64,000 bases of DNA from Branchiostoma floridae (Eukaryota > Chordata > Leptocardii > Amphioxiformes > Branchiostomatidae): NCBI RefSeq assembly GCF_000003815.2, contig NC_049995.1:18520824-18584823 (forward strand). The letters are read 5' to 3'. Position 1 is the first letter of the stretch, and every line of letters begins with the position of its first letter. Below, one piece after another: positions 2 to 59,620 of this stretch. A model generated the notes under the pieces. It had not been told where the DNA came from. It did no database searches and was given only the letters and a program-made list of their open reading frames with translations. A program made the position numbers and the translations under genes.

Positions 2-901
2 CCCGCTCTGGGTTCAGAAGCACCCGAGCAAGAGCGAGACACATCGGGGACAGAAGGGGCGGCATCCCGCTCAACTGGGGATAGCAAACAGGATGTGGTC
101 ACTTTTGGCGGGAAAGGATCAGAACCGGGAAAGTTTAAGTTCCTGCGCGGGGTTGTGGTGTCGCCTAGCAACGAGATATGTGTGGCTGATATGAGTAACA
201 GGCGAGTCCAAGTCCACAGCATGGAGGGGGTTTACCTGCGCAACTTCCCAACAGTTGTACCGGGTACAGGAGAAAGTACGATGCTGCCACGTGATGTTTG
301 TATGGACGGTAACGGCACGCTGTGGGTGGTGGGGGAAGGAGAGACAGCCGAACATGTTGTACAGTACAGCACGGACGGGGCCGCCATGGCGCGGTTTGAC
401 CTGAAGAAGAGCCATAATTTCCGCGGCATCGCAGTAGACACGCGCACTAACCACATCCTGGTGACTGATGCAGCCAACACTGAAGTACAGGTGTTCCGTC
501 CGGACGGCTCCCTGGTGCGGACAGTCCGGCATCCCGAGGGTGAGATGAAATACCCACATTACGTCACTGTGGACGGGGAAGGGAACATTCTTGTGTCGGA
601 CTGGAGAAGTGACTCTGTGTACGTGTATGACGAGTCCGGGAAGTTCCTGTTCCAGTTTGGAGGGAAGGGAAGTGGTGAAGGTCAGCTGATGTATCCCCGC
701 GGCATCTGTACAGGCAGCTCTGGGCACATCCTCGTGGCGGACAATGAGAACAGGAGAGTTCAGATCTTCACACGTCACGGCGAGTTTGTCCGAACCTTTC
801 GTACTGGATTTAAGCCGACAGGCCTGGCTGTGGGACCGGAAGGGCAGCTGGTTGTGACCGATCAACCTAACCACACTTTGGCCGTATTTTCTAATTACTG
901 A
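2..901 (+). CDS. Gene A, 3' end: NHL-propeller protein of the DED-NHL family (5' part outside window)
   Basis: The reading frame is open from base 2 to the TGA at 899-901 (299 codons). It starts in the acidic linker (EAPEQERDTSGTEG) that precedes the propeller in all paralogs. A closing strand (VTFGGKG) and six NHL repeats follow, beginning near PSNEICVAD, DGNGTLWVV, TRTNHILVTD, DGEGNILVSDW, SSGHILVAD and GPEGQLVVTD. By family knowledge NHL repeats form a six-bladed propeller that binds protein or RNA. No frameshift is seen. The upstream exons (DED, X, coiled coil) are expected to the left of the window. Loop residues differ from the other copies (for example MYPR in blade 5 and RSDS in blade 4), while scaffold residues are nearly identical. 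Intracellular location is inferred from the absence of a signal peptide in the complete paralogs. Confidence 0.9.
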   Translation, partial: PALGSEAPEQERDTSGTEGAASRSTGDSKQDVVTFGGKGSEPGKFKFLRGVVVSPSNEICVADMSNRRVQVHSMEGVYLRNFPTVVPGTGESTMLPRDVCMDGNGTLWVVGEGETAEHVVQYSTDGAAMARFDLKKSHNFRGIAVDTRTNHILVTDAANTEVQVFRPDGSLVRTVRHPEGEMKYPHYVTVDGEGNILVSDWRSDSVYVYDESGKFLFQFGGKGSGEGQLMYPRGICTGSSGHILVADNENRRVQIFTRHGEFVRTFRTGFKPTGLAVGPEGQLVVTDQPNHTLAVFSNY

Positions 902-1890
902 TTGTAGAACAATTTAATCTTCGAAATTGATTGACTTTTGTCCCAACACAGACCGGACAAATTCATTTTTTTACATTTTATTCAGCCCATTAGCTACCAT
1001 ACGGATGGACGGATGGACGGATGGACGGGTGGGGCGGTGCCTACTTCCAACGCCCTTGGACCCGTCGATCAGACCAGACTTTTGGAAGGTCACGTGTTCT
1101 CAGAAATTGAGTCCTTTTTATAACTGTTCCCATCGTCAGTCATATTCAAGAAGATTCCCGGAAGCTCACTTTGTGTTCACTCACAATCCTAATGCTTTAT
1201 TCAATACGTACTGTCATGCTCATGTTGGTTAGGGGTAGCTTACTAACAGATTGTGATTTCCCTTCATGACTTAGCCGATGATAACGAGTATCCAAACAGC
1301 AATTTACTGGTGAAGGTTCAGGATGCACGACATTTTTCACCTGTAACATAAAGTATTATCAGCTGAACGACTCAATACTACATACAGGTCTCTACACCAT
1401 GTCTAACGATTGCACATTAACATGTCTTTTGTATCAGCGGTTGAATCCCTTGTGGCTGAATTGGGTCCTGTGAGAACATAATCAGTATTTCACCAATTTA
1501 AGTTATAACTGCTTTGGATGAAATCATTATGGTGGTCTAACGTATGATAAGTACAGACCATAGTTTCGATCCCTATTCACCATATGATAATAGTGATAGT
1601 GATAGTCCAGTGCCAACATTTTATCTCAAAGCAGATGTTGGGAGGTAAATTGTCTGCCACTGGTGTCTATCGTGGTGGCAGATGTATATTCACACCTAGC
1701 GGATACTGCAGGTACTACAGGATGCCCCTGAAGGGAATTTTGCCCAGTAACGCATAGAAATAGAAATACAGGGATGAACTGCCCAGTAGAACCAAATGTA
1801 CCTGTATTACAAGTCATATATGTGCTGTGGCGCTCATTACGCGTACGCATTAGTGACAATTATTACCCTTATCCGAACTAATTTCGTCAC
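902..1890. other. 3' flank of gene A and upstream region of gene B
   Basis: No gene is seen. An 8-bp microsatellite (GGATGGAC units) lies at about 1003-1030. The place where other copies carry CCAATAAA reads CACCAATTTAAG near 1491, so the usual poly(A) signal looks degraded here. The stretch from about 1250 on is homologous to the other intergenic regions (for example GCCGATGATAACGAGTATC). Confidence 0.5.
1003..1030. repeat. GGATGGAC microsatellite
   Basis: About 3.5 copies of an 8-bp unit occur just downstream of gene A. It is absent from the other intergenic copies at this density. Confidence 0.7.
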
Positions 1891-3176: not shown

Positions 3177-3186
3177 TTATATATAT

Positions 3187-3217
<31 letters not shown>
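3177..3217. repeat. (TA)n microsatellite
   Basis: An alternating TA tract directly abuts the 178-bp MITE. The MITE's TA target duplication falls within this tract. Confidence 0.85.
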
Positions 3218-3395: not shown

Positions 3396-3397
3396 TA

Positions 3398-4563: not shown

Positions 4564-6019
4564 ATGGCAGGTCCCGTCAGAAAAAGAGTAGACACTGCCG
4601 ACAGACGCCATTTTGATTTTGTTCAAACCTTGCTCCGTATTTCCGATGAACTGACAGAAGAGGAAACGGCAAACGTGAAGTTACTTTGCCTGCATCTGAT
4701 CCCTGAAGGCCAGTCGGAACAACTTAAACGGGCAGTGGACGTTTTCCAAAAGCTGATAAAAATGGACAAAATTGACAAGGAGAATCTCGACTTTCTCGAG
4801 GAGATCTTAGAAAGAATCAACCGACTTGATCTGATCCGAGACGTTCTGAGACGGTTTCAACCGCCAGACCGAGATATTCCGGAGAATCCCGAACTGCAAC
4901 CGAGAAGTAACGACGTGGGTGCAAGTAAAAGAGGTCAGTAAAATCAGTACTTTTCTGGTAACGCTTTAAAAGTGCATAAAACGGTTCAACATGACAGTTC
5001 TTTCCTCGAACGTTAGATTTTTAACAGTATCGCAATATCAATTGACTTTTTTTTTCTTTTTGTAGTACTTACTGTAATCAACCTTTGGCTTACACATTGG
5101 CTAAAGCGATAGAACAAATGCTGTTTTCGTTACAGAAGCACCCAAGGAAGAGCGACACACAGCGGAGGCAGCAGGAGCGGCATCTGGTTTTACTTGGGAC
5201 AGGAAACAGGATGTGATCACTTTTGGCGGGAAAGGGTCGGAACCAGGAAAGTTTTATTATCCGCGCGGGGTTGTGGTGTCACCTAGCAACGAAATATTTG
5301 TGGCTGATATATTTAACAAGCGAGTCCAAGTCCACAGCACTGAGGGGGTTTACCTGCGCCACTTCCCAACAGTTGTACCGGGTACAGGGGGTAAGGTCAT
5401 GGAGCCATATGATGTCTGTATGGACGGTAACGGCACGCTGTGGGTAGTGGGGCTCGGAGTGACAGCTGACCTTGTTGTACAGTACAGCACGGACGGGACC
5501 GCCATGGCGGGGTTTGACCTGAAGAATAGCTCTTATTACCGTGGTATAGCAGTAGACATGCGCACTAACCACATCCTGCTGACTGATGCAGACCAAAGTG
5601 CAGTTCAGGTGTTCCGTCCGGACGGCTCCCTGGTGCGGACAGTGCAGCATCCACTGGGTGGGATGGTACGCCCAATGTGCGTCACTGTGGACGGGGAGGG
5701 GAACATTCTTGTGTCGGCCTGGGGAACTCACAGTGTCTACGTGTATGACGAGTCCGGGAAGTTCCTGTTCCAGTTTGGAGGTCATGGAAGTGGTGAAGGT
5801 CAGCTGAAATATCCCCGCGGCATCTGCACTGACAGTTTGGGGTACATCATCGTGGCGGACTATGGGAACGAGAGGGTTCAGATCTTCACACGTCACGGCG
5901 AGTTTGTCCGTGCCGTCCGTACTGGGTTTGAGCCGGAATGCCTGGCTGTGGGACCGGAAGGCCAGCTGGTTGTAAGCGATTGGAATAATCATACAGTGAC
6001 TGTATTTCCTAACTACTGA
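4564..6019 (+). CDS. Gene B: short DED-NHL fusion protein (two coding exons)
   Basis: Exon 1 is 4564-4933 and exon 2 is 5136-6019, joined at phase 1, giving 417 residues. Residues 1-95 form a DED: helix 2 has ELTEEETANVKLLCLHL and the end has the family's RxDL motif (RLDL). From about residue 150 a six-repeat NHL propeller runs to the TGA. The X domain, coiled coil and GEKPPGGW hinge of the other paralogs are missing. The acceptor (CGTTACAG/AAGCACCC) matches sequence that is exonic in the paralogs (GGTACAGAAGCACCC), so an internal deletion seems to have recruited a splice site. The donor is AGAG/GTCAGT, weaker than in sister genes. The exon before ATG ends in TTTTTAG. Blade 4 has an A in place of the usual D (SAWG). 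The frame is intact, so a functional minimal form is plausible; a degraded copy kept open by gene conversion is the alternative. Confidence 0.8.
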
Positions 6020-10441: not shown

Positions 10442-10599
10442 AAAATAACATAACCAGATATATGACTTCTATGGATGCAGGCATAAACGGGTTTGTGTGT
10501 TAAACAGTAGTTTTACATCTGCAGTTTAAATGATCTATCTTCTATGAACATGTAAGTTTGTGGCGATGGCTTATCAGTGTCCTGGTCTCTCCCGCCCCT

Positions 10600-10675: not shown

Positions 10676-12683
10676 GAACTCTGATCGATGTTTGGGTGGT
10701 GGAAATGGGGACAAAGTCTGTGGTTCAGTCAATTGCAAGTCAGTCAGTACACGACTCAGGCTAGTTTGTGGTATTTGTGATCCTGTAGCAAGAAGGTGAC
10801 ATGATTTGTAGATGTTGTTAGTCGGAGAAGGATTATTTGTAAAATCATCTACTATAAATGTGTTAAATTTAAAGAGTTAGAGTGACCTTTTGGCACTGGT
10901 ACTGGAGCGCCAACTAGTGATTCATGATGGCAGTACACCCTTGGCATTATCGATTGACCGGAAACAAGATGGTGAACGGGGAAGGGGCATGTTCACAAGA
11001 TGTCGAAGGACATCGATGCCGACTGATGTAATAAAATAATTCAAAAAACTATGCTGTATCACCATATAGATATTTCTAATTTAATATTGTGTTATTTTTC
11101 AGGATGGCAGGCCCACCGCGGGAAATTGAAGGGTTCACAGATGAAGACCGACGACATTTTGAGTTCGTGCGACCTCTCATTCACATATCTGATTCCCTTA
11201 CCAAAAAGGAAACAGATGATGTGAAAATATACTGTGCGCACGTGATTCCAAAAGGCATGATAAAAGGTCTAAAACGGGCAGTTGACATTTTTCTAAAGCT
11301 AAAAGAAATAGGCAAGATCAACCAGGAGAACCTGGACTTTGTTGAGGAGGTTTTGGAAATGATCGGACGACGTGATTTGGCTCGGGACGTTCTGCGGCCA
11401 GCCCAACAACCTGACCGAGCGATTCCGGAAAATCCCGAACTCCAGCCGGAAATCCCCGAGCCCCAGCCGGAAAACCCCGAGCCCCTACCGGGACCAAGTC
11501 ATGACGAAGCGAGGGCAGAAGGTAAGCAAAAATTAAGTATCATTGTTTACTCAAACTCAGTATAACATATCTCAAGTAACCGCTAGGCACAAAATTCTTT
11601 AAATCGGGCTGTATAGAGTTTCCGATTCCGTGTATTTTTCTGTTTTATTCAAATTAGTATTTAAGACCGAAAAAGGGACTTTAAAAACATACTAATGATG
11701 ATTCTTTTCACAAGTCTTCTATCCCTAGTCTGCAATACTTGAAACTTAACCTTGTGAAAATATCTTAATATTTCCAGAACCTACAGCGTCCAACATCTAC
11801 ACAGTGGTGCACGGCCACAGCAGCATGACCCAGGAGACGGTAGATCGTCACAGACAGAACATAGCATCCGCCTGTAACACCAGGAGGTCACAGGTCAAGT
11901 TCAGAGGTTACAAGAAGCACAAGAGCATCCTGGTGCACTTCTCCATACCGCGGGAGAACACGGCGGTGCTGAGGCACATGGCGGATCACTCCGACCCGAG
12001 ACTTGTCTACATGGGCGTCAAATCACTGCAGATCGACGCTGAAGTTCCCATCAAAGTCCAGCAGAGGGCGCCGTTGTACGGTAAGTTGATTTCCTTTTAG
12101 CCTTTATATGTACTTCATTTGTCAATTTTAGATTTTGCAGTTCCGTCAAAGAATGTAGATTTTTAAATGAGGTTAAATTTTCTCTTAAAGAAGCACCATC
12201 TGAAATTATAGATGCTGAAGAGCAACTGAATGTTTTCTTGTGAAAAATTAGCAATCAATTCTATTCCAGTACTTTCCGACCATCTACCATATGACTAAAC
12301 TTCTCGTAGCTGCATGTCAGGCATTTAGAGAGATTTACTTCAACTTTACTTGGACAAGCAGGTCTTAGTAGGTGATACCATATCCAACCATATGTCTCAT
12401 GGTGTCATCTATCTTTCACTGATGTGTTCCAGATGTCAAGAGGCAACTGCCCGTCGATGACATCGAGGTGGGATGCAGCACCCGGACCAAACACCAGAGG
12501 GCGCCCCAGAGCTGGACCCGCCTGTCTGCCCTGAACCTGTTCTCGGACGCCCTGCCGCTCCATCTGCAGGCAGCCGCGAGTCTGGAGTACCAGGGCTTCT
12601 CCTACAGCCTGGTCCGGGCTCTGGTGCAGAAGGACCGGCTCAGAGAACACCAGATGAGGCAGGCCATCCAGAACCTCAGGAAC

Positions 12684-12848
12684 GCAGAGGTGGATTCCAA
12701 CACGCTCCGTCAGAAGGCAGAGGTGGATTCCAACACGCTCCGTCAGAAGGCAGAGGCGGATTCCAACACGCTCCGTCAGAAGGCAGAGGTGGATTCCAAC
12801 ACGCTCCGTCAGAAGGCAGAGGTGGATTCCAACACGATCATGACTTTG
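12684..12848 (+). repeat. 33-bp coding tandem repeat in gene C coiled coil
   Basis: Five 33-bp units each encode 11 residues (AEVDSNTLRQK, third unit AEADSNTLRQK). Eleven-residue (hendecad) periodicity fits a coiled coil. Other genes have two units (D, E, G, H, I), four (J) and seven (F). Confidence 0.9.
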
Positions 12849-12980
12849 CGCTCCAAGCTCAACATCACAGAGAACAGGCTGAAGGAGGCTCTTGAGACGA
12901 TCACAGTTCTTGAAGAAAAGCTGCGGCAGGCTCAAGAATACGCAGAGAAAGTCGCCAAGCAGGTGACGTCCCACGTGACG

Positions 12981-13175
12981 GAGTACAGGGGAGAGAAGCC
13001 GCCTGGAGGCTGGCCACAGGAGTTCAGGGGAGAGAAGCCGCCTGGGGGCTGGCCACAGGAGTACAGGGGAGAGAAGCCGCCTGGAGGCTGGTCACAGGAG
13101 TACAGGGGAGAGAAGCCGCATGGAGGCTGGTCACAGGAGTACAGGGGAGAGAAGCCGCATGGAGGCTGGTCGATA
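12981..13175 (+). repeat. 39-bp coding tandem repeat (YRGEKPPGGWPQE) in gene C
   Basis: Five 39-bp units encode 13 residues each, with the invariant core GEKP-GGW. Copy number varies between paralogs from one (I) to about six (G). They probably form a flexible Pro/Gly/Trp hinge between coiled coil and propeller. Confidence 0.9.
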
Positions 13176-14245
13176 CAGGTCGAGAAGGCAGATTCAGCTA
13201 CACAGACACACCTATTGGATCCTTTTGGTACTACAGGGATACCTGGAGATGTGGGCGGTGACAAGGTTGGAGAAGACACGACTGTAGAGGAAGAAGACGG
13301 GAAAACTCCAAGACAAGATTCTGGCAGTGGGAGCAGTGGAAAAGAGGATGTTCTCGGTACAGAAGCAACCAAGCAAGAGCGACACACAGCGGGGACAGAA
13401 GGAGCGACATCTGGCTCTACTGGGATCTTGAAACAGGGTGTGATCACTATTTGTGGGGAGGGATCAGAACCTGGAAAGTTTCGGCTCCCACGTGGTGTTG
13501 TCTTGTCGCCTAGCAACGAGATATTTGTGGCTGATATGAGTAACAAGTCCAAGTCCACAGCACTGAGGGGGCTTACTTGCGCCACTTCCCAACAGTTGTA
13601 CCGGGTACAGGGGATAAGGACATGCAGCCACATGATGTCCGTATGGACGGTAACGGCACGTTGTGGGTAGTGGGAGAAGGATGGACAGCCCATCATGTTG
13701 TACAGTACAGCACGGACGGGACCGCCATGGCGCGGTTTGAACTGAAGAAGAGCCATAATTACCGAGGTATAGCAGTGAACATGCGCACTAACCACATCCT
13801 GGTGACTGATGCAGACCAAGTTGAAGTTCATATGTTCCGGCCGGACGGCTCCCTGGTGCGGACAGTCCGGCATCCACGGGATAGGGAGATGACACGCCCA
13901 ACGTACGTCACAGTGGACGGGGAAGGGAACATTCTTGTGTCGGACTGGAACAAAGACTCTGTCTACGTGTATGACGAGTCCGGGAAGTTCCTGTTCCAGT
14001 TTGGAGGTTGGGGAAGTGGTGAAGGTCAGATGAAGTGGCCTCACGGCATCTGTACAGACGGCTCTGGGCACATCCTCGTGGCGGACCATGGGAACGAGAG
14101 AGTTCAGATCTTCACACGTCACGGCGAGTTTGTCCGGACCTTCCGTACTTGGTTTAAGCCGGAAGGCCTGGCTGTGGGACCGGAAGGGCAGCTGGTTGTG
14201 ACCAGTTGGAGTTTTCTTACTGTAACTGTATTTCCTAACTACTGA

Positions 14246-18347: not shown

Positions 18348-21174
18348 ATGGCAGGTCCGGTTCGAGAAAGAGTCACAGATGCCGACAGGCGCCATTTCGA
18401 TTTTGTGCAAACCTTGCTCCGTATTTCCGATGAGCTGACAGAAGAGGAAACGGCAAACGTGAAGTTGTTCTGTCTGCATCTGATTCCTGAAGGCCAATCG
18501 GAACAACTGAAGCGGGCGGTGGACGTTTTTCAAAAGCTGATTAAACTGGACAAAATTGACCAGGAGAATCTCGACTTTCTCGAAGAGCTGTTGGAAAGAA
18601 TCGGGCGTCAGGACCTGATTCGGGACGTTCTGAGACAGTTCCAGCCTCCTGAACGAGAGATTCCGGAAAATCCCGAACTGCAGCCGGGAACAAGTCAACA
18701 GGGAGCAGATGCAGAAGGTGAGTTACAAGCAAGAAAATTATGGATGAACCTCAAACAAAAACCTATTATCTGCCCGGCAGCCTTGTATCGTCATAGAAAT
18801 ACATTTCTATGGAATTTGGTCTAAATCCAACCACTTATAGAAATCATAAGAAGCAATCCTGTGGACTTGTTGTCAATTAACATTAACACTTTCATTGCTA
18901 CTTAACATTCCAGGAAATGCAACGTCCAACACATACGTGGTCGTGAACGGCCAAGTGCGCATGATCCAGGAAACTCTAGATCGTCTTAGAAACCACATAG
19001 CAACGTTATCTGGCACCAGAAGGTCAATGGTCAAGTTCAGAGGTTACAAGAAGCACAAGAGCATCCTGGTGCACTTCTCCATACCGCGGGAGAACACGGT
19101 GGTGCTGAGGCACATGGCGGATCACTCCGACCCAAGACTTGTCTACATGGGCGTCAAGTCACTGCAGATCGACGCTGAAGTTCCAATCAAGGTCCAACAG
19201 GGGGCGCCGTTGTACGGTGAGTTGCATGCTTTTAGCTATAGTCTTCACAAACAATCAAATGTACTCTATCTGTGAATTTTAGACTTTTGCAGGTCTATCG
19301 AAGAATATGGATGTTATTTTGAGTTTATATTTTCTCATACAGAAGCACCATCAAAGACTATAGATATTTAAGAGATACAGAATATCTACTTGTGAAACAT
19401 CAGAAGTCGATTTTATTCCAATACTTTCCCAGCATCTACCATATGGCTGAACCTGATAGTAGCTGCATGTTAGACATGTAAATAGATAGCATTATTTCTA
19501 CTGTACTGGGACGAGCAGGTCGTGTACGTGACGCCATATCAAACCCTATGTTTCATGATATCATATATCTTTAACTTATGTGTTCCAGATATCAAGAGGC
19601 AACTGCCTGTTGATGACATCGAGGTTGGATGCAGTACACGGAACAAACACCAGAGGGCGCCCCAGGGCTGGACCCGCCTGTCTGCCCTGAACCTGTTCTC
19701 GGACGCCCTGCCGCTCCATCTGCAGGCAGCCGCGAGTCTGGAGTACCAGGGCTTCTCCTACAGCCTGGTCCGGGCTCTGGTGCAGAAGGACCGGCTCAGA
19801 GAACACCAGATGAGGCAGGCCATCCAGAACCTCAGGAACGCAGAGGTGGATTCCGACAAGCTCCGTCAGAAGGCAGAGGTGGATTCCAACACGATCATGA
19901 CTTTGAGTTCCAAGCTCAACATCACAGAGAACAGGCTGAAGGAGGCTCTTGAGACAAACGATATTCTTGAAGAAAAGCTGCAGCATGCTCAAGAATACGC
20001 GGAGAAAGCCGCCAAGCAGGTGACATCCCACGTGACGGACTACAGGGGAGAGAAGCCGCCTGGAGGCTGGCCACAGGAGTACAGGGGAGAGAAGCCGCCT
20101 GGAGGCTGGTCGGCACAGGTCGAGAAGGCAGATTCAGCTACACAGACTCACCTAACTGAACCTGTTGGTACTACAGGGATACCTGGAGGTGTGGGTGACA
20201 AGGTTGGAGCAGACCCGACTGCAAAGGAAGAAGACGGGAAAACTCCAAGACAAGAATCTGGCAGTGGGAGCGATGGAAAAGAGGATGTTCTCGGTACAGA
20301 AGCACAAGAGCAAGAGCGACACACAGCGGGAATACAAAAAGCGGCACCTGGCTTTACTGGTGTGATTACTTTTGGTGGGTTTGGAAAGGAACCTGGAGAG
20401 TTACGGGACCCACGCGGTGTTGTGGTGTCGCCAAGCAACGAGATATTTGTGGCCGATGAACTTAACAGGCGAGTCCAAGTCCACAGCACAGAGGGGGTTT
20501 ACCTGCGCCACTTCCCAACAGTTGTACCGGGTGCTGGAGATAAGGACATGGAGCCGCATGATGTCTGTATGGACGGTAATGGTACGCTGTGGGTAGTGGG
20601 GCGGGGAAAGACAGCTCACCATGTTGTACAGTACAGCACGGACGGGACCGCCATGGCGGGGTTTGACATGAAGAAGAGCATTTATTTCCGCGGCATTACA
20701 GTGGACATGCGCACTAACCACATCCTGGTGACTGATTGTGACCACGGTGAAGTTGATGTGTTCCGTCCGGACGGCTCCCTGGTGCGGACAGTCCGACATC
20801 ACGAGGGTGAGATGACACACCCACGGTACGTCACTGTGGACGGGGACGGGAACATTCTTGTGTCGGACTGGAACAATTACAATTACTACGTGTATGACGA
20901 GTCCGGGAAGTTCCTGTTCCAGTTTGGAGGTTTGGGAAGTGGTGAAGGTCAGCTGAATAGGCCTGCAGGCATCTGTACAGACAGCTCGGGTCACATTCTC
21001 GTGGCAGACTATGGGAACGAGAGGATTCAGATCTTCACACGTCACGGCGAGTTTGCCCGTACCGTCCGAACTGGGTCTGGGTCTGGGCCGGAAGGCCTGG
21101 CTGTGGGACCGGAAGGGCAGCTGGTTATGACCAATTCTTTGAACGACATTGTGACTGTTTATCCAAGCTATTAG
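18348..21174 (+). CDS. Gene D: DED-X-coiled coil-NHL protein, intact
   Basis: Exons 18348-18717, 18914-19216 and 19589-21174 are joined at phase 1 (donors GAAG/GTGAGT and TACG/GTGAGT; acceptors CATTCCAG and TGTTCCAG) and encode 752 residues. Residues 1-95 are a DED with the acidic helix-2 and RQDL elements of the DED charge triad. Residues 124-224 are the X domain. From about 285 a coiled coil runs to about 370, with only one 11-residue repeat plus the terminal unit, then two GEKPPGGW repeats, an acidic linker and NHL repeats from about 478. Propeller loops differ from sisters (RDP, DEL-N, NNYNY, NRPA, and an SGSG insertion in blade 6). No RING, B-box or membrane segment is seen. ATG is chosen because it directly follows the conserved TTTTCAG acceptor; a frame from 18297 is open but not conserved. 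Confidence 0.88.
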
Positions 21175-34475: not shown

Positions 34476-34706
34476 GCAGAGGTGGATTCCAACACGCTCC
34501 GTCAGAAGGCAGAGGTGGATTCCAACACGCTCCGTCAGAAGGCAGAGGTGGATTCCAACACGCTCCGTCAGAAGGCAGAGGTGGATTCCAACACGCTCCG
34601 TCAGAAGGCAGAGGTGGATTCCAACACGCTCCGTCAGAAGGCAGAGGTGGATTCCAAAACGCTCCGTCAGAAGGCAGAAATGGATTCCACCACGATCATG
34701 ACTTTG
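34476..34706 (+). repeat. 33-bp coding tandem repeat in gene F coiled coil
   Basis: Seven 11-codon units (five AEVDSNTLRQK, one AEVDSKTLRQK, one AEMDSTT). This is the longest expansion in the window; several units are identical at the DNA level. Confidence 0.9.
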
Positions 34707-34761
34707 CGCTCCAAGCTCAACATCACAGAGGACTTTGCGCTCCAAGCTCAACATCACAGAG
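34700..34761 (+). repeat. Exact 31-bp tandem duplication in gene F
   Basis: GACTTTGCGCTCC...CACAGAG occurs twice back to back (34700-34730 and 34731-34761). It is single-copy in every paralog. Because 31 is not a multiple of 3, the frame is lost. Confidence 0.95.
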
Positions 34762-39140: not shown

Positions 39141-42100
39141 ATGGCAGGTCCGGTCCGAGTAAGTAGAGTCACAGCTGCCGACAGGCGCCATTTTGATTTT
39201 GTCCAAACTTTGCTCCGTATTTCCAAAGAGCTCACAGAAGAGGAAACGGCAACCATGAAGTTGTTCTGCCTGCATCTGATCCCTAAAGGTCAGAGGGCAC
39301 AACTCAAGCGGATAGTGGATGTATTTCACAAGCTGATGGAACTGGACAAAATTGACCAGGAAAACTTGGAATTCATAGAAGAGATCTTGGAAAGAATCGG
39401 ACGACAGGACCTGATTCGGGACGTTCTGCGGCGGTTCCAGCCTCCTGACCGAGAGATTCCGGAAAATCCAGAACTCCAGCCTGAAAACCCCGAGTTTCAG
39501 CCGGAAAACCCCGAACTGCAGCCGGAAAATCCCGAGTTTCAGCCGGAAAACCCCGAACTGCAGCCGGAAAATCCCGAGTTTCAGCCGGAAAACCCCGAAC
39601 TGCAGCCGGAAAACCCCGAAAACCAGCCGGAAACCCCCGAACTCCAGCCGGGAGCAAGTCTGTTAGGGACGACAGCAGAAGGTGAGTCACATGTGGTGGA
39701 TTTTAAGCCCCACACAACACTGTCTGTACAACTGGCCATACATCTCGTCCTGAAGTACTTTTTCAACACTATTTACGCTTGGGGAGGGCTTAAACTCCCC
39801 GCGTCAACTTTGAGGCTAGAAAACTTTTCTTAAACTTTTATTGTGAACAATTTTAGGATAATAGATAGTATTTTTTTCCATTTTTCGTGTTGCCATGGCA
39901 ACGGGTTTCTGACAATCATATTATACAAGAATCACAAATTCTGGTTAAAGCCACGAGGTTTCTAAGTTTTCTTGCTAATATAATCTAATATAACATTCAT
40001 AATTGAATATTCGTAATTCATACTAGTGTGATAACGTAATCTGTCACAATCCCAAACGGTGAAAAATGACACAAGGTTTTAATCAAGTCGTTGTCACTCG
40101 ACTATCATTATTAATTTGTACAAAAGCTTCAAAGGAACGTTTTCAGTCTTCTTTATGGTATTTGCTTGATATATGTGGAATAGAATGTATTTACAGAATC
40201 TAAGGTTGCAGATCTAAGATTCAGGATTTCAAAGGAGACCAAAAATACCTATGACTTATGATTTATTTTTACACCATTGCGGTTGCATTTGACAACACAA
40301 GTCTATAATAAGTCTATTGGACAACATTTCTCTCGTTACATTTTTGTTTAATACAGTACTAAGTCTAAGAGAAATCAATCCTTATTTACACAGTTTTAGT
40401 TAATGAAAACACATATATGACGTCATGTAGTGCAACAATACATGGTTTACATATCCGGGCGATTTTATATTGTGTTGTACAATAAGCTGCACTTTAGCCC
40501 TTGTCTAAAATTTTGCAGCTTTTAGTGCGTCGTGTGATAAACCGAATCATCTCATCTCCTTACGAATGACTTTGGCCCTTTTGTATTCGTGTTTGTTTCA
40601 GGTGACGTGCAGGGATATTTTGACGATGTCATCGAAGAAGTCAGCTACAAGTGGGACGACCTGGCCTGGAAGCTGGGATTTCATGATAACGAAATCAAAG
40701 TAATCCGAGACTTGGAGCGTGACCATGACCACAGGTGCAGGGAAATGCTGACCAGGTGGGGAAACAGGGAGGGAAGGGGAGCAACTCTACAGGTGCTGAT
40801 CCAAGCCCTAAAGAACATTGGTGAAACTCGGACAGCAGAGAGCCTAGAAGGTTTGTATTATCGTCGCTTTGTAAGAAATATCACCATCACGATCTAGCAG
40901 TTCTATAGCAAATTAAAAGGATTAGGCTATTAATATATTACTCTCAACCCAGTTAGAAACGCTTAGAAACCTTTTGATTTTTTTTTAAACAACACAAACT
41001 TATTATTGATTATTGTTTGCAGGACCTACAACCTCCAACACCTACGTGGTTGTGCACGGCACAGTGCGCATGATCCAGGAAACTCTAGATCACCTTAAAA
41101 ACTGCCTGGCAGCGTTAATTGGCACGAGAAGGTCACAGGTCAAGTTCAGAGGTTACAAGAAGCACAAGAGCATCCTGGTGCACTTCTCCATACCGCGGGA
41201 GATCACGGCGGTGCTGAGGCACATGGCGGATCACTCCGACCCGAGACTTGTCTACATGGGCGTCAAGTCACTGCAGATCGACGCTGAAGTTCCCATCAAA
41301 GTCCAACAGGGGGCGCCGCTGTATGGTGAGCTGACTTCTTTTAGTCTTCATTTGTTCTCTGTCAATTTTAGACTTTTGCAGGTCCATCATCAAAGAATAT
41401 GGATTTCATATCCAGTTGCATGAGTAACTAATGGTGTATCAAATTACCTGGATGTCTAATCCTTATCGACGTTCAATGTGGGTTTAAATTTTCTCTTGCA
41501 GAAGAACCATCAAAGACACTATAGATCTTGAAGAGAAACAGAATGTTTCCTTTTAAAAAATCTGCAGTCCATATTATTCCAGTACTTGCCGACCATTTCC
41601 CATATGCCTGAAACTGCTAGTACCTACAAGTTAGACATGTAAATAGCGATATTTACTTCAACTGTACATGTACTTGGACAAGCAGTCGTTGTACGTGATG
41701 CCATTTCAAACCCTATGTTTTATGATGTCATATCTCTTTCACTGGTGCGTTCCAGTTATCAAGAGACGACTGCCCGTTGATGACATCGAGGTGGGCTGCA
41801 GTACACGCACCAAACACCAGAGGGTGCCCCACAACTGGACCCGTCTGTCTGCCCTGAACCTGTTCTCGGACGCCCTGCCGCTCCATCTGCAGGCAGCCGC
41901 GAGTCTGGAGTACCAGGGCTTCTCCTACAGCCTGGTCCGGGCTCTGGTGCAGAAGGACCGGCTCAGAGAACACCAGATGAGGCAGGCCATCCAGAACCTC
42001 AGGAACGCAGAGGTGGATTCCAACATGCTCCGTCAGAAGGCAGAGGTGGATTCCAACACGATCATGACTTTGCGCTCCAAGCTTAACATCACAGAGAACA

Positions 42101-43503
42101 GGCTGAAGGAGGCTCTTGAGACGATCGCAGTTCTTGAAGAAAAGCTGCAGCAGGCTCAAGAAAACTCAGAGAAAGCCGCCAAGCAGCTGGCATCCCACGT
42201 GACGGAGTACAGGGGAGAGAAGCCGCCTGGAGGCTGGCCACAGGAGTACAGGGGAGAGAAGCCGCCTGGAGGCTGGCCACAGGAGTACAGGGGAGAGAAG
42301 CCGCCTGGAGGCTTGCCGCAGGAGTACAGGGGAGAGAAGCCGCCTGGAGGCTGGCCACAGGAGTACAGGGGAGAGAAGCCATATGGAGACTGGCCACAGG
42401 AGTACAGGGGAGAGACAGCGCCAAGTAGTGGTTCGGCAGAGGTCAAGAAGGCAGACGCAGCTACACATACATACCTAGCGGGTCCTGTTGGTACTGCATG
42501 GGGACCTGGCGATGTGGGTGACAAGCTTGGAGAAGACCCGCCTGTAAAGAAAGAAGACAGAAAAACTCAAATACAAGACTCTGCAAGTGTGGGCGATGGA
42601 AAAGAGGCTGTTCTCTGTACAGAATCACCCGAGCAAGAGCGCCACACAGCGGGGACAGAAGGAGTGGCACCCTGCTCTATTGGGGACATGAAACAGGGTG
42701 TGATCACTTTTGGTGGGGAAGGATCAGAACCGGGAAAGTTTGTGAACCCGCGCGGCGTTGTCGTGTCGCCTAGCAACGAGATATTTGTGGCTGATCACAA
42801 CAACAGGCGAGTCCAAGTCCACAGCACAGAGGGGGTTTACCTGCGCCACTTCCCAGGAGTTGTACCGGGTACAGGGGATAAGGTCATGAAGCCACATGAT
42901 GTCTGTATGGACGGTAACGGCACGCTGTGGGTAGTGGGGTGGGGAGAGACAGCCGACCATGTTTTACAGTACAGCACGGACGGGACCGCCATGGCGGGGT
43001 TTGACCTGAAGAAGATCGGTTATTCCCGCGGTATTGCAGTGAACATGCGCACTAACTACATCCTGGAGACTGGGGGCAATAATGAAGTTCATGTGTTCCG
43101 TCCGGACGGCTCCCTGGTGCGGACAGTCCGGCATGCCGAGGGTGGGATGACATGCCCACGGTACATCACTGTGGACGGGGAGGGGAACATTCTTGTGTCG
43201 TACTGGTTCAATCACTGTGTCTACGTGTATGACGAGTCCGGGAAGTTCCTGTTCCAGTTTGGAGGTGAGGGAAGTGGTGAAGGTCAGCTGGATAGTCCCC
43301 TCGGCATCTGCACAGACAGCTCTGGGCACATCCTCGTGGCGGACTATGGGAACGAGAGGATTCAGATCTTCACACGTCACGGCGAGTTTGTCCGAACCTT
43401 CCGTACTGGATTCAGACCGACAGGCCTGGCTGTGGGACCGGAAGGGCAGCTGGTTGTTACCAGTTATTTGAACGACATTGTGACTGTTTATCCCAGCTAT
43501 TAG
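39141..43503 (+). CDS. Gene G: DED-DD-X-coiled coil-NHL protein, longest intact member
   Basis: Exons 39141-39681, 40602-40850, 41023-41325 and 41756-43503, all phase 1, encode 946 residues. The DED resembles that of E and has a two-residue insertion near the start (VRVSRV, shared in form with I's FRESRV). Nine ENPELQP/ENPEFQP repeats follow, then the DD (about 181-263; WDDLAWKLGF, RCREMLTRWGN), the X domain (264-364), the coiled coil, five GEKPPGGW repeats plus a degenerate sixth (GETAPSSG), and NHL from about 672. Loop differences include FVNP, DHNN, TGGNNEV, YWFNHC and DSPL. The last exon starts V-I-K in place of D-V-K. The DD donor is again GAAG/GTTTGT. The frame 39105-39140 before ATG is open, but ATG follows a CAG acceptor-like site (GTATTCAG). 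Confidence 0.88.
39462..39650 (+). repeat. 21-bp coding tandem repeat (ENPELQP) in gene G
   Basis: Nine 7-codon units alternate ENPELQP and ENPEFQP, ending in ENPENQP and ETPELQP. D, F, H and B have one unit, I three and E five. This lengthens the tether between DED and DD. Confidence 0.9.
39889..39902. promoter_or_regulatory. X-box (RFX-type) palindrome in gene G intron
   Basis: GTTGCCATGGCAAC, identical to the site in gene E at the same intron position. Confidence 0.4.
42205..42414 (+). repeat. 39-bp coding tandem repeat (YRGEKPPGGWPQE) in gene G
   Basis: Five clear units and a degenerate sixth. Unit 3 has L for W (GGLPQE) and unit 5 reads GEKPYGDW. This is the highest copy number in the window. 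Confidence 0.9.
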
Positions 43504-48429: not shown

Positions 48430-51234
48430 ATGGCAGGTCCGGTACGAGAAAGAGTCACAGATGCCGACAGGCGCCATTTTGATTTTGTGCAAACCTTGCT
48501 CCGTATTTCCGATGAGCTGACAGAAGAGGAAACAGCAAACGTGAAGTTGTTTTGTCTGCATCTGATTCCTGAAGGCCAGTCGGAACAACTGAAGCGGGCA
48601 GTGGACGTTTTCCAAAAGCTGATTAAACTGGACAAAATCGACCAAGAGAATCTTGACTTTCTCAAAGAGCTGTTGGAAAGAATCGGCCGACAGGACCTAA
48701 TTCGGGACGTTCTGCAGCAGTTCCAGCCGCCTGACCGAGAGATTCCGGAGAATCCCGAACTGCAGCCGGGATCGAGTCAGCAGGGCCAGGGAGCAATTGC
48801 AGAAGGTAAGTAACAACTAACATGCAAGAAAAGTTTGTATAAGCCTCAAATAAAAAATCCATTATCTGGCCGGCAGCCTTACCTCGTTATTTCTATGGCA
48901 TTTGCTCTCAATCCAACTAGTAAAAGAACTCATAAGAAACAATATTTCGGACATGTTTTCAATTAACATAAACACTTGATATTCCAGGACATGCAACCTC
49001 TAACACCTACGTTGTCGTGAACGGCCAAGTGCGCATGATCCAGGAAACTCTAGATCGCCTTAGAAACCACATAGCAACGTTATCTGGCAGCAGAAGGTCA
49101 CAGGTCAAGTTCAGAGGTTACAAGAAGCACAAGAGCATCCTGGTGCACTTCTCCATACCGCAGGAGAACACGGCGGTGCTGAGGCACATGGCGGATCACT
49201 CCGACCCGAGACTTGTCTACATGGGCGTCAAGTCACTGCAGATCGATGCTGAAGTTCCCATCAAAGTCAAGCAGGGGGCGCCTGTGTACGGTGAGTTGAC
49301 TTTGTATTTGTCTTCAATTGTATTTAACATAGACTTAGTCGGTACTTCTCCACTGGTCTGAATTCAGGCACATTCCGTTGGTATTCCAGTTTAGACATTG
49401 AGTGGTTTTATTTTGGCAATATTTGCGTTTTTCTTCCAAGTTACAAAAATATTTTTGGAAAAAGAAAATGGTTGTCGACGCTTTTACAACATGTCTAATA
49501 GATGTCTAATAGATTGTCCCTAGCTGTCATTTTTTATACAGATAATGCTTTATGTACATGAAATGCAATTTCCATACATCAGAACCATCTAGACCATTTA
49601 CCTGTTGATTTGTGAAGTTAGTTTCACTAAATTTCAGATGTCAAGAGACAACATCCTGTTGATGACATCGAGGTGGGATGCAGTACCCGGACCAGACACC
49701 AGAGGGCGCCCCAGGGCTGGACCCGTCTGTCTGCCCTGAACCTGTTCTCGGACGCCCTGCCGCTCCATCTGCAGGCAGCCGCGAGTCTGGAGTACCAGGG
49801 CTTCTCCTACAGCCTGGTCCGGGCTCTGGTGCAGAAGGACCGGCTCAGAGAACACCAGATGAGGCAGGCCATCCAGAACCTCAGGAACGCAGAGGTGGAT
49901 TCCAACAAGCTCCTTCAGAAGGCAGAGATGGATTCCAACACGATCATGACTTTGAGTTCCAAGCTCAACATCACAGAGAACAGGCTGAAGGAGGCTCTTG
50001 AGACGATCGCAGTTCTTGAAGAAAAGCTGCAGCAGGCTCAAGAATACGCAGAGAAAGCGGCTAAGCAGGTGGCTTCCCAATTGACGGAGTACAGGGGAGA
50101 GAAGCCACCTGGAGGCTGGCCACAGGAGTACATGGGAGAGAAGCCGCCTGGAGGCTGGTCAGCACTGGTCGAGAAGGCTGATGCAGTTACACAAACACAC
50201 ATAGCCGATACTGTTGGTACTACAGGGAGACCTGAGGATCTGGGTGACAAGCTTGGAGAAGATCCGACTGTAAAGCAAGAAGAAAAGAGAACTGCAAGGC
50301 AAGACTCTGACACTGACAATGGGGTCGATGAAAGAGATGATATTTTTAGCACAAAACCAATTGAGGAAGAACAACACATAGCGGTAATAGAAGGAGCGCC
50401 AATTGGCTCTACTGGGGACATAAAACAGGGTGTGGTCTCTTTTGGTGGGGAAGGATCAGTACCTGGAAAGTTTTCTTACCCACGTGGCGTTGTGGTGTCG
50501 CCTAGCAACGAGATATTTGTGGCAGAAAAAGACAACAAGCGAGTCCAAGCCAACAGCACAGAGGGAGTTTACCTGCGCCACTTTCCAACAGTTGTACCGG
50601 GTACAGGGGATAAGGTCATGGAGCCGCATGATGTCTGTATGGACGGTAACGGCACGCTGTGGGTAGTGGGGGGAGGAAAGATAGCTGACCATGTTGTACA
50701 GTACAGCACGGGCGGGACCGCCATGGCGGGGATTGAACTTAAGAAGGGCTCTTATGACCGGGGTATTGCGGTGAACATGCGCACTAACCACATCCTGGTA
50801 ACTGATTGTGACCAAGGTGAATTTCATGTGTTCCGTCCGGACGGCTCCCTGGTGCGGACAGTCCGGCATCCACAGGCTGGTCTGAAACGCCCGGGGTATG
50901 TCACTGTGGACGGGGAAGGGAACATTCTTGTGTCGGACTGGGGCAGGAAATCTGTGAGCCTGTATGACGAGTCCGGAAAGTTCCTGTTCTGGTTTGGAGG
51001 TGAGGGAGGTGGTGAAGGTCAGTTTATCCCTGTGGCATCTGTACAGACAGGGCAGGTAACGTCCTCGTGGCGAACCCTGGGAACAGGAGGGTTCATATTT
51101 TCACACGTCACGGCGAGTTTGTCCGGACCGTCCATACTAGGTCTAAACCGGAAGGCCTGGCTGTGGGACCGGAAGGGCAGCTGGTTGTCACCGATCGGTG
51201 GAACGACACTGTGATTATATTTCCTAACTACTGA
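48430..51234 (+). pseudogene. Gene H: DED-X-coiled coil-NHL gene with 4-bp frameshift in NHL blade 5
   Basis: Exons are 48430-48805, 48988-49290 and 49638-51234, phase 1. The DED is almost identical to that of gene D (EGQSEQL subtype, RQDL). The X domain has a Q for R change (IPQEN). The coiled coil has one diverged unit (NKLLQKAEMDSNT) and there are two GEKPPGGW repeats. The linker before the propeller is the most diverged of the array (DTDNGVDERDD). Near 51024, four bases are missing between GGTCAG and GGCATC compared with all sisters. Translation leaves the propeller in blade 5 and stops at 51214 (751 residues); the original frame would end at the TGA at 51232-51234. The protein may misfold, so a pseudogene is likely, but a five-sixths propeller product cannot be excluded. 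Confidence 0.72.
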
Positions 51235-54972: not shown

Positions 54973-55192
54973 CTTTCATGAATTAGTTTATTTATATAGC
55001 CTGGTGGTGAAACTGACAGAAAGTTACCATATAAATGTCTTCTAAGTTACTTTGAATGCGTATGTGGGACTATGGTTTATGGTATTAACAGTTGCACTTT
55101 AGATGTCTTATATTACTGTGAATAGAATAATGATCATGTAACTATCTTTATGTCGCAAGGACCTATCATTGTCCTGATCTCCACCCCGCTCC

Positions 55193-55739: not shown

Positions 55740-58700
55740 ATGGCAGGTCCGTTCCGAGAAAGCAGAGTCACAGATGCTGACAGGCGCCATTTTGATTTTG
55801 TCCAAAGTTTGCTCCGTATTTCTAAAGAACTCACAGAAGAGGAAACTGCAGTCATGAAGTTGTCCTGCATGCACCTGATCCCTAAAGGCAGGGCGGAACA
55901 ACTCAAGCGGACAGTGGATGTTTTCCACAAGCTGATGGAACTGGACAAAATTGACCAGGAGAACCTGGAGTTTATAGAAGAGATCTTGGAAAGAATCGGA
56001 CGACAGGACCTGATTCGGGACGTTCTGCGGTCGTTCCAGCCGCCTGACCGAGAGATTCCGGAAAATCCCGAGCTGCAGCCGGAAAACCCCGAGCTGCAGC
56101 CGGAAAACCCCGAGCACCAACCGGGAGCAAGTCTGTTAAGGACGACAGCAGAAGGTGAGTCACACATAAAGCCTCACATAACACTGTCTGTACAACCTGC
56201 CATACATCTCGTCCTGAAGTACTTTTTCAACACTATTTACGCTTGGGGAGGGATTAAACTCCCGACGTCAACTTTGAGACTAGGAAACTTTTCTTAAACT
56301 TTTGTTGGCAACAATTTTAGGATAATAGACTTTTTTTAATTTTCGTGTTGCCGTGGCAACGGGATTCTAACAACCATATGTTAGAAGAATCACTAATTCT
56401 GGTTAAAGCCACGAGGTTTCTAAGTTTTCTTGCGTATATAGTTTAATATAACATTCATAAAATCAAGTATTCGTAATTTATACTAATGTGATAACGTAAT
56501 CTGTTTCAATCCCAAACAGTGAAAAATAACACAAGGTTTTAGTCAAGTTGTCACTCGACTGTCATTACTACTTTGTACAAAAAGCGTTTTTAGTCTTCTT
56601 TATGGTATTTGGTATATGTGGAATAAATGTATTTACAGAATCTAAGGTTGCAGATCTAAGATTCAGGATTTCAAAGGAGAGCCAAAATACCTATGACTTA
56701 TTTCTACACCATTGCGGTTGCATTTGACAACCCAGGTCTATAATAAGGCTATTAGACACCATTTCTTTTGTTACAGTTTTGTTTAATACAGTACTAAGAG
56801 AAATCCTTATTTACACAGTTTTAGGTAATGAATTAACATACATGACGTCATGTAGTGCAACAATACATGGATTACATAACCGGGCGATTTTATATTGTGT
56901 TGTACAATAAGCTGCACTTTAGCCCTTGTCTAAATTTTTTTTAGTGCGTCGTGAGATAAACCGAATCATCTCACCTCCTTACGGAGGACTTCGGTCCTTT
57001 TGTATTCGTGTTTGTTTCAGGTGACGTGCAGGGATATTTTGACGATGTCATCGAAGAAGTCAGCTACAAGTGGGACGACCTGGCCTGGAAGCTGGGATTT
57101 CAGGATAACGAAATCAAAGTAATCCGAGACTTGGAGCGAGACCATGACCACAGGTGCAGGGAAATGCTGACCAGGTGGAGAAACAGGGAGGGAAAGGGAG
57201 CTACTCCACAGGTGCTGAAACAAGCCCTAAAGAACATTGGTGAAACTCGGACAGCAGAGAGCCTGGAAGGTTTGTATCATCGTTTTGGAAGATATGTTAA
57301 AATTTACCATCACGATCTACCCTTTATATAACAGTTCTGTAGAAAATTATAAGGGTCACGAGTTTTCTTCTCCATCCAACTAGAAACTATTAGAAATATT
57401 ATTGAATAGTTTGTAAAATAGCACAAACATCTTAATAATTATATTGAATTTGCAGGAACTACAACCTCCAACACCTACGTGGTCGTGCACGGCACAGTGC
57501 GCATGATCCAGGAAACTCTAGATCATCTTAAAAACTGCCTGGCAACCTTAATTGGCACGAGAAGGTCACAGGTCAAGTTCAGAGGTTACAAGAAGCACAA
57601 GAGCATCCTGGTGCTCTTCTCCATACCGCGGGAGAACACGGCGGTGCTGAGGCACATGGCGGATCACTCCGACCCGAGACTTGTCTACATGGGCGTCAAG
57701 TCACTGCAGATCGACGCTGAAGTTCCCATCAAAGTCCAACAGGGGGCGCCATTGTACGGTGAGCTCAATTAGTGTTTCACTTCACATAATTGTCAAATTT
57801 AGATCGCTACAAGAATAAGGACATTACTAACTTTATGAAAGTTATTATCTACTATTATTTTCTTTCGACGCTTTACCAAACCTCTGGCTATTGAATTCAG
57901 GGAAACAGAATGTTCCATTCCAGCACTTTCGGCCCAAAACCACATGACTAAAAGAAGCACGTTTCTGGAGGAACTTAAACTGTATTTGGACAAGAATGTC
58001 TTGTGGGTGATGTCATATCAAATACAATCTGTAAATTTCATGATGTCATTTTTCTTTCACAAATGTGTTCCAGATTTCAAGAGACAACTGCCTGTTGATG
58101 ACATTGAGGTGGGATGCAGTACCCGGACCAAACACCAGAGGGCGCCCCAGGGCTGGACCCGCCTGTCTGCCCTGAACCTGTTCTCGGACGCCCTGCCGCT
58201 CCATCTGCAGGCAGCGGCGAGTCTGGAGTACCAGGGCTTCTCCTACAGCCTGGTCCGGGCTCTGGTGCAGAAGGACCGGCTCAGAGAACACCAGATGAGA
58301 CAGGCCATCCAGAACCTCAGGAACGCCGAGGTGGATTCCAACACGCTCCGTCAGAAGGCAGAGGTGGATTCCAACACGATCATGACTTTGCGCTCCAAGC
58401 TCAACATCACAGAGAACAGGCTGAAAGAGGCTCTTGAGACGATCGCAGTTCTTGAAGAAAAGCTGAAGCAGGCCCAAGAATACGCAGAGAAAGCCGCTAA
58501 GCAGGTTGCATCCCACGTGACGGAATACAGGGGAGAGAAGCCGCCTGGAGGCTGGTTTGCTCATCAGGCGGAGAAGGCAGATGTAGCTACACAGACACAC
58601 ATAGAGGGTTCTGTTGATATCACAAGGAGACCTGGAGAAAGGGTTGAAAAGCATAGAGAAGACCCAACTGCAAAGGAAGAAGGCAGGAAAACTCCAAGGA

Positions 58701-59620
58701 AAGACTCTGGCAGTGGGAGGCATGGAAAAGATGCTGTTTTCGGTTCAGAAGCATTCAAATCAGAGCGACACACAGAGTTGATAGAAGGAGCGGCACCTGG
58801 CCCTACTGGTGTGGTCACTTTTGGCGGGAAAGGATCAGAACCTGGAAAGTTTAATTACCCACGTGGCGTTGTGGTGTCGCCTAGCAACGAGATATTCGTA
58901 GCTGATACAGACAACAGGCGAGTCCAAGTCCACAGCACGGAAGGGGTTTACCTGCGCCACTTCCCAACAGTTGTACCGAGTAAAGGGGGTTATTACATGG
59001 GGCCACATGATGTTTGCATGGACGGCAGCGGCACGCTTTGGGTAGTGGGGCAGGGTGAGACAGCTCATTATGTTGTACAGTACAGCACGGACGGGACCGC
59101 CATGGCGGGGTTTGACCTGGAGAAGATCGGTTATTCCCGCCGTATTGCAGTGGGCATGCGCACTAACCACATCCTGGTTACTGATCCAGACAATGCTGCA
59201 GTTCATGTTTTCCGTCCGGACGGCTCCCTGGTGCGGACAGTCCGGCATCCACGGGGTGGGGAGATGACTCGCCCAACGTACGCTACAGTTGACGGGGAGG
59301 GGAACATTCTTGTGTCGGACTGGGACACTCACTGTGTCTACGTGTATGACGAGTTCGGGAAGTTCCTGTTCCAGTTTGGAGTCGAGGGAAGTGGTGAAGG
59401 TCAGCTGAGTGCTCCCTGTGGCATCTGTACAGACAGCTCGGGGCACATCCTCGTGGCGGACTATGGGAACAAGAGTGTTCAGATCTTCACACGTCACGGC
59501 GAGTTTGTCCGTACCGTCCGTACTGGGTTTCGGCCGGAAGGCCTGGCTGTGGGGCCGGAAGGGCAGCTGGTTGTAAACAGTTATTTGAACGACATTGTGA
59601 CTGTTTATCCCAGCTATTAG
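55740..59620 (+). CDS. Gene I: DED-DD-X-coiled coil-NHL protein, intact
   Basis: Exons 55740-56154, 57021-57269, 57456-57758 and 58074-59620, all phase 1, encode 837 residues. The DED (ELTEEETAVMKLSCMHLIPK, RQDL) is followed by three ENPELQP repeats, a DD at about 139-221 (WDDLAWKLGF, RCREMLTRW), the X domain (222-322; ILVLFSIP in place of ILVHFSIP), a coiled coil with the minimum of 11-residue units, a single GEKPPGGW and NHL from about 563. The pre-propeller linker differs strongly from the others. Blade 3 begins RRIAVGM where sisters have RGIAVDM, and blade 5 has FGVEGSGEG. Loop changes include FNYP, TDN, GYY, PDNAAV, DTHC, SAPC. The DD donor is GAAG/GTTTGT as in E and G. The block before the coiled coil carries a few base changes while most copies are identical there. 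Confidence 0.88.
56347..56360. promoter_or_regulatory. X-box-like palindrome in gene I intron, one mismatch
   Basis: GTTGCCGTGGCAAC, with one base changed relative to the E and G copies at the same intron position. Confidence 0.35.

Follow-up and report, generated by a model that had tools for sequence, protein, structure and literature searches.

Which part of the encoded protein differs between closely related tandem genes, and whether selection keeps the copies different, is the question raised by a 64,000-nt stretch of the lancelet Branchiostoma floridae (contig NC_049995.1, here C17, positions 18,520,824-18,584,823; the window). By tblastn, it holds nine NHL propellers and parts of ten tandem genes, all on the + strand. 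An initial annotation had described ten propellers differing mainly in the d-a and b-c loops, which share one face of the fold, and had read this as diversifying selection on a binding surface. Nine propellers were found in the window, and the tenth begins just beyond its end (C17:18584927, equivalent to window position 64104). For blades 1, 4 and 5, the sequence bears out the residues given in the initial annotation, and the one-sided pattern was recovered both within the window and in copies outside it.

A full gene consists of three coding blocks, namely a DED exon, a TRADD-N exon, and a block encoding a coiled coil, tandem linker repeats and a six-bladed NHL propeller; TRADD-N follows DED in eight of the nine genes with a DED inside the window. 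Pfam NHL was matched by all nine propellers at E<=0.01 (best E 4.3e-34; for copies 3 and 8, one in-frame piece of each was scanned), with 105.7 bits for the copy 6 propeller against a curated cut-off of 20, and the WD40 family was absent among the Pfam matches of the window propellers. Blades inside one propeller match one another at 28-41% identity. Pfam DED was found in the two DED exons scanned (E 1.9e-18 in copy 6 and 1.7e-17 in copy 7), and TRADD-like_N (E 1.3e-9) and NCOA6_TRADD-N (E 4.3e-9) were found in the same exon of copy 10, the former in frame 62563-63069. The two exon-3 frames and the two DED exons that were scanned contained no RING or B-box match, and no NACHT match was seen in the window exons scanned.

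The AlphaFold2 model obtained from the nine aligned propellers, with copy 6 modelled, had a predicted local distance difference test score (pLDDT) of 94.8 and a predicted template modelling score (pTM) of 0.92, and contained 24 strands forming six four-stranded blades. The best matches among solved structures were the NHL domains of TRIM3, TRIM2 and Thin (TRIM3 template modelling score 0.89, 32% identity). Strands were assigned by DSSP, the d-a and b-c loops were counted as the top face and the a-b and c-d loops as the bottom face, and the 271 codons of the propeller were thereby divided into 82 top-loop, 60 bottom-loop and 129 strand codons.

Replacement excess on one face of the propeller

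Site models were used because pairwise counting gives many silent steps at multiply hit codons and understates the ratio there. In the nine copies, twice the log-likelihood difference (2dlnL) was 187 for M8 vs M8a, 219 for M8 vs M7 and 188 for M2a vs M1a, and the fast class of M8 had a ratio of replacement to silent rate (omega) of 5.7 at 15% of codons. At a posterior probability (P) above 0.5, 41 of the 271 codons belonged to this class: 34 of the 82 top-loop codons, none of the 60 bottom-loop codons and seven of the 129 strand codons, of which one is at mid-strand and the other six fall within the uppermost fifth of the strand (top vs bottom loops, Fisher p = 2e-10). Estimated by region, omega was 1.99 in the top loops, 0.20 in the bottom loops and 0.53 in the strands (2dlnL 254 over a single omega), and by loop it was 1.64 in d-a, 2.88 in b-c, 0.23 in a-b and 0.18 in c-d, indicating that the ratio is raised in exactly those loops that the initial annotation had singled out. 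Fixing omega at 1 for the top class was rejected with nine copies (2dlnL 45) and with four (10.6). The top loops are not uniformly fast, conserved Gly and Pro positions being interspersed with variable ones, and the nine copies carry net charges between -3 and +3 at the 41 sites.

The signal was retained in the seven unbroken propellers (M7/M8 2dlnL 145; 31 top, 0 bottom and 5 strand sites), under a star tree (287; 32, 0 and 9) and with separate trees for blades 1-2, 3-4 and 5-6 (52, 66 and 51). It was also retained in copies 4, 5, 7 and 9 only, which show no break in any matched block (M8a/M8 2dlnL 46; 21 top, 0 bottom and 5 strand sites; omega 1.69 at the top and 0.19 at the bottom). With silent rates left free (dual-rate model), a class with beta>alpha was still needed (2dlnL 43.5), its 32 sites at P>0.9 comprising 25 top, 0 bottom and 7 strand codons, and the fitted silent rate was 1.22 at selected codons vs 1.27 elsewhere. 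A parametric bootstrap of 100 null simulations on three segment trees gave this statistic a mean of 3.9, a 95% point of 10.9 and a maximum of 15.0. The proposed diversifying selection therefore withstood the removal of broken copies, changes of tree, free silent rates and the bootstrap, and became weaker in small subsets under free silent rates.

In the signalling domains, M0 omega was 0.24 for DED (9 copies), 0.31 for TRADD-N (8) and 0.27 for the N-terminal coiled-coil block (8), and within the window no positive class was supported in any of them (M7/M8 2dlnL 0.4, 1.1 and 3.6, respectively). The dual-rate 2dlnL was 5.1, 2.9 and 0.5, with 2, 1 and 0 sites at P>0.9.

Copies outside the window and a second NHL family

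A search of the genome (513,431,437 bases in 431 contigs) with the copy 4 propeller returned at least 142 matches at E<=1e-30 (769 candidates). At least 65 propellers at >=68% identity lie in a 609-kb array (C17:18,297,355-18,906,190), nine of them inside the window; a DED query gave 75 matches, 68 of them at C17 18.28-18.91 Mb, and further NHL matches at about 50% identity were found on C17 and other contigs. Two near-duplicates, L059 (close to copy 1) and L063 (close to L061), were removed from the 56 array propellers outside the window, leaving 54; four of these (L053, L062, L066 and L067) are incomplete.

At the 41 codons that the window analysis had selected, these 54 copies showed a proportion of replacement differences (pN) of 0.405 and of silent differences (pS) of 0.239 (pN/pS 1.70, interval 1.36-2.17), and the remaining 230 codons gave a pN/pS of 0.42 (0.34-0.52). 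Omega was 1.97 for top, 0.24 for bottom and 0.59 for strand codons, and a top omega of 1 was rejected (2dlnL 226). An independent M8 fit placed 12% of codons in a class with omega 5.47 (2dlnL 1078 vs M8a), and its 33 sites at P>0.5, comprising 26 top, 0 of 60 bottom and 7 strand codons, included 30 of the window's 41 (hypergeometric p 2e-27). The dual-rate test gave a 2dlnL of 300 and 45 sites at P>0.9 (30 top, 0 bottom and 15 strand), the fitted silent rate being 0.93 at selected codons vs 1.40 elsewhere. Because the pattern recurs in these 54 copies, chance is a very unlikely source of it. Altogether, 57 of 63 copies have at most two gaps at the 41 sites; all 57 are distinct, pairs differ at 14 to 38 of these sites, and the mean is 8.7 amino acids per selected position.

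A second family was sampled by 18 propellers (L068-L085, C17:17.25-17.51 Mb), one of several groups at about 50% identity, and both proteins scanned from this cluster (L076 and L077) carry RING and B-box. Omega was 2.43 for top, 0.40 for bottom and 0.61 for strand codons (M8a/M8 2dlnL 441), and 26 of its 40 sites (31 top, 1 bottom and 8 strand) coincide with the window set (p 5e-16). The dual-rate test gave a 2dlnL of 46, with 17 sites at P>0.9 (13 top, 1 bottom and 3 strand). The RING/B-box/coiled-coil part (10 copies) had an omega of 0.56 and itself showed a weaker positive class (omega 1.97, M8a/M8 2dlnL 13.8), and the contrast between propeller and signalling part is for this reason less strict in the RING/B-box family.

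Several observations weigh against diversifying selection on one face. The tree-free pN/pS over all 82 top-loop codons was 1.20 (0.90-1.65) in the window, which is not distinguishable from 1; it was 1.14 (0.91-1.43) in the outside copies, an interval that also includes 1, and 0.97 in the RING/B-box cluster (bottom 0.47, strand 0.66). Leave-one-blade-out register choice gave a pN/pS of 1.10 (0.79-1.66); it was too weak to decide and was therefore replaced by the copies outside the window. Under free silent rates, copies 4, 5, 7 and 9 alone reached a 2dlnL of only 6.6, and blades 1-2 and 5-6 reached 8.6 and 8.1 (29.0 for blades 3-4), the three low values lying under 10.9, the null 95% point from simulations of all nine copies at full length. 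Among the null simulations, at least one reached 31 sites at P>0.9 (mean 2.4), and single sites are thus less certain than the whole test. Of the 15 dual-rate strand sites in the outside copies, four are found no higher than the middle of their strand (height 0.5 for columns 100, 132 and 266, and 0.25 for column 214), making this set less cleanly top-ended than the M8 set. The DED value of 5.1 with two sites, noted above, points the same way. The site models were our own implementation with naive posteriors and not PAML or HyPhy, branch lengths for the 54 copies were scaled from a nucleotide tree and their M8 and dual-rate fits had no bootstrap of their own, and the faces were defined by DSSP and propeller topology rather than by model coordinates or solvent exposure. 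In addition, of the eight genes whose whole extent, DED through propeller, falls inside the window, four (copies 2, 3, 6 and 8) are disrupted or incomplete.

Proposed exchange between copies and the candidate role of the variable face

The histories of exons and flanks were found to differ, since divergence of introns, 3' flanks and propellers conflicts. Divergence (K) of intron 2, between the TRADD-N and coiled-coil exons, ranges from 0.21 to 0.85, the most divergent pairs being perhaps not truly alignable, and silent divergence (dS) of the propeller stays at 0.11-0.28 regardless of the introns; for copies 5 and 6, intron K is 0.845 and propeller dS 0.113. In the 300 bp past the stop, copies 4, 5 and 7 differ by 4-7%, and their propellers differ by 13-15%. 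Among 60 near-complete copies (1770 pairs), those lying closer together in the genome did not have more similar propellers (rho -0.01). When 36 of the 41 sites were set by hand into twelve loop groups, identity at one loop scarcely predicted identity at the next (mean correlation 0.014).

Shared loops look inherited and not reinvented: 212 of 2749 codons inside them differ silently. Silent divergence flanking shared loops, relative to non-sharing pairs, was 0.63 at 1-3 codons, 0.61 at 4-7 and 0.80 at 8-14, and farther out 1.24 at 15-25, where no reduction was seen, and 0.91 at 26-45; the reference is a 25% sample of non-sharing pairs, and the comparison is descriptive, with no significance test. 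At 1-3 codons the value was lower for sharing pairs in 10 of the 12 loops. The shared silent tracts are consistent with copies exchanging segments a few tens of bases long, as in short-tract gene conversion. A phi-type recombination test in the window gave p 0.0025 at third positions, 0.057 at all sites and 0.014 with selected codons removed; in 45 outside copies it was not significant (p 0.55 to 0.75), which speaks against exchange. Short-tract exchange between copies is accordingly regarded as supported but not proven.

Four-fold silent diversity in the outside copies was 0.249 at 0-2 codons from selected codons, 0.128 at 3-5 and 0.094 at 6-10, and in the window it was 0.233 within 2 codons and 0.077 at 6-10. 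A peak of this kind is expected near sites that selection keeps different, and a local rise in mutation rate would match it too.

The combination of a face that varies, a body and signalling domains that are constant, and a linker whose length differs between genes points to a receptor. The genes of the window quite likely belong to a repertoire of intracellular recognition receptors encoded in the germline, with a face that probably senses invaders. In the proposed mechanism, a constant part (DED, TRADD-N and coiled coil) would be joined through the repetitive linker to the six-bladed NHL propeller, and in all six blades the d-a and b-c loops would contribute to one face, where paralogs are under strong diversifying selection and outside which the propeller is conserved. 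Loops would be swapped among copies as short tracts, with selection keeping the copies different on this face. The face would capture a ligand, most likely of invaders, upon which the coiled coil and DED may assemble a death-effector signalling complex. By topology, the face is predicted to point away from the DED and coiled coil.

Similar architectures have been described by Kaur et al. (2021), who reported expansions of DED, TRADD-N, linker and WD40 propeller in lancelets and other marine invertebrates, took the high variability of the propellers as a sign of diversification by recombination and predicted counter-invader sensing (PMC8195603). The present genes resemble those systems in the order of DED and TRADD-N, the low-complexity linker, the C-terminal propeller and the lineage-specific expansion, and differ from them in that the propellers are six-bladed NHL and not WD40; in that paper, "NHL" never occurs in the main text and "positive selection" does not occur (PMC8195603). 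Raised entropy of the expanded TRADD-N was reported there (PMC8195603), whereas no positive TRADD-N class was supported here within the array.

For the fungal HET-D/HET-E proteins, Paoletti et al. (2007) reported positive selection at the d-a loop and b-c turn of the propeller top, together with concerted evolution (PMC1805685), and selection falls on the same loops here. HET-D/HET-E carry a NACHT domain and WD40 repeats that are up to 100% identical and are swapped as repeat units (PMC1805685). Unlike this, exchange here seems to take place between copies at the same position, and neither near-identical blades nor, in the exons scanned, a NACHT domain were found. The present case joins the architecture of Kaur et al., with an NHL propeller, to the evolutionary mode of Paoletti et al. 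In LIN41, RNA is bound on the upper NHL surface, opposite the preceding domain (PMC5908797), and by topology the variable loops should lie on the same side as this RNA-binding surface.

The NHL fold is shared with the TRIM-NHL proteins (TRIM71/LIN-41, TRIM2/3, Brat and Thin), from which the present genes differ in having no RING or B-box in the window exons scanned and, given the range of net charge at the 41 sites, no constant basic pocket. NHL propellers are best known as RNA-binding or developmental domains of these proteins. Tachylectin-2 is a propeller lectin for which we know of no NHL or death-domain partner. In corals, positive selection has been reported in this putative invertebrate immunity gene (PMC2880987). 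Among the matches listed, which covered titles and abstract openings outside the subscription literature, neither positive selection on the loops of an NHL propeller nor the combination of architecture and evolutionary mode seen here was reported.

A previously descriptive picture of variable propellers is thus replaced by a mapped and replicated surface: some 41 positions, almost all of them on a single face of an otherwise constant NHL scaffold. The question of the ligand thereby becomes directly testable. The results suggest that NHL propellers can act as variable sensors with two different outputs in one genome. More tentatively, the NHL propeller may be a general variable recognition module, used in both the DED/TRADD-N and the RING/B-box families, with loop-sized germline conversion across a 600-kb array and near-free combination of twelve loops on a constant scaffold. 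If true, this would amount to a combinatorial innate repertoire in which two separately amplified families vary largely the same face, in an animal group that to our knowledge lacks rearranging antigen receptors.

Among the other explanations, the one that survives best, although we consider it unlikely, is a binding face under diversifying selection that serves allorecognition between individuals or gametes and not the sensing of pathogens. Allorecognition is the function of the fungal HET-D/HET-E propellers (PMC1805685), mechanistically the nearest parallel, and the sequence of the window does not itself identify the ligand; apoptosis and defence against invaders have been linked to the DED and TRADD-N families (PMC8195603) and the RING/B-box NHL cluster varies much the same face, both of which tell against allorecognition, if not decisively. 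Relaxed constraint, in which the top loops drift neutrally while folding holds the body, is contradicted and very improbable: top-loop pN (0.27) is lower than the intron 2 divergence of many pairs, and pN/pS of the whole top-loop class is near 1, but omega of 5.5-5.7 at 12-15% of codons, the rejection of a top omega of 1 in the nine-copy, four-copy and outside sets, and a lower bound of 1.36 for pN/pS at window-chosen sites in other copies are not what drift would give. Least credible is that the signal is artificial, with gene conversion or a local mutation hot spot violating the assumptions of the site models. This explanation would accord with the differing exon and flank histories (copies 5/6; 3' flanks of copies 4, 5 and 7) and with the silent diversity raised within 2 codons of selected codons, but exchange moves variants and should not lift replacement above silent diversity at the same sites, the silent rate is not raised at selected codons in either copy set, and the signal is kept under the dual-rate model, the star tree, the segment trees and the segment-tree bootstrap.

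Three further candidates were dropped. Targeted mutagenesis of the diversity-generating retroelement (DGR) type was set aside on account of the unraised silent rate at selected codons, template and variable repeats not having been searched for; a conserved basic RNA pocket was dismissed on the spread of net charge at the 41 sites, and uncollapsed haplotypes on the intron divergence of up to 0.85.

Gene copies and other features of the window

Splice sites were inspected, though not fixed for every exon end; the parts of copies 1-10 given below were located by tblastn on the + strand. Copy 1 is cut by the window start and is represented by its propeller (95..898). Copy 2 comprises a DED exon (4564..4938) and a propeller (5213..6016) 275 bp apart, between which no TRADD-N or coiled-coil match was found at E<=1e-5. 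Copy 3 has a DED exon of divergent type (11104..11445), a TRADD-N exon (11789..12058), coiled coil and linker (12423..13424) and a propeller with a frame change near 13547 (13440..14242).

The same order of DED exon, TRADD-N exon, coiled coil with linker, and propeller was observed in copy 4 (18348..18722, 18913..19194, 19579..20361 and 20362..21171), copy 5 (24850..25308, 26940..27221, 27581..28363 and 28376..29182), copy 7 (39141..39482, 41022..41303, 41746..42687 and 42700..43500) and copy 9 (55740..56081, 57455..57736, 58064..58810 and 58811..59617). In copy 6 (32952..33332, 33531..33812, 34215..35235 and 35248..36051), the propeller of which was the protein used for structure prediction, the coiled-coil block changes frame between 34670 and 34717, adjoining a 31-bp tandem duplication (34700-34761, 100% match). 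In copy 8 (48430..48810, 48987..49268, 49631..50419 and 50432..51231), the propeller changes frame between 50995 and 51025. Copy 10 comprises a DED exon (61994..62428), a TRADD-N exon (62626..62907) and coiled coil with linker (63252..63998), its propeller lying past the window end.

The region 18348-63998 resembles a repeated two-gene unit with a unit length of about 13.6-16.6 kb. Two DED/TRADD-N types were observed, one with a long gap between the exons (1.4-1.6 kb; copies 5, 7 and 9) and one with a short gap (about 0.2 kb; copies 4, 8 and 10, and also 6), and groupings by intron 2 and by 3' flank disagree with these two types. Coding minisatellites differ in copy number from gene to gene and consist of 33-bp coiled-coil units, 39-bp EYRGEKPPGGWPQ units and 21-bp PENPELQ units after the DED (12680-13171, 34472-34982, 39459-39651, 42204-42415, 62286-62371 and 63509-63632).

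In the surrounding array, near-duplicates are found at a distance from each other: L059 (C17:18591756) and copy 1 differ by 0.6%, and L061 (18311130) and L063 (18788536), separated by about 477 kb, differ by 1.7%, the propellers of the latter two lying on the minus strand. A partial propeller at 74% identity was found about 7 Mb from the array (C17:11234084-11234617). In a lancelet pangenome, death and death effector domains were the most enriched among dispensable genes of B. floridae (PMC12373286), which would fit an array varying in content.

Two reverse-transcriptase frames were observed on the minus strand of the window, at 9397-10512 (Pfam RVT_1 E 1.7e-21) and 53494-54975 (E 3.7e-7). The latter may be a Penelope-like element with a GIY-YIG end.

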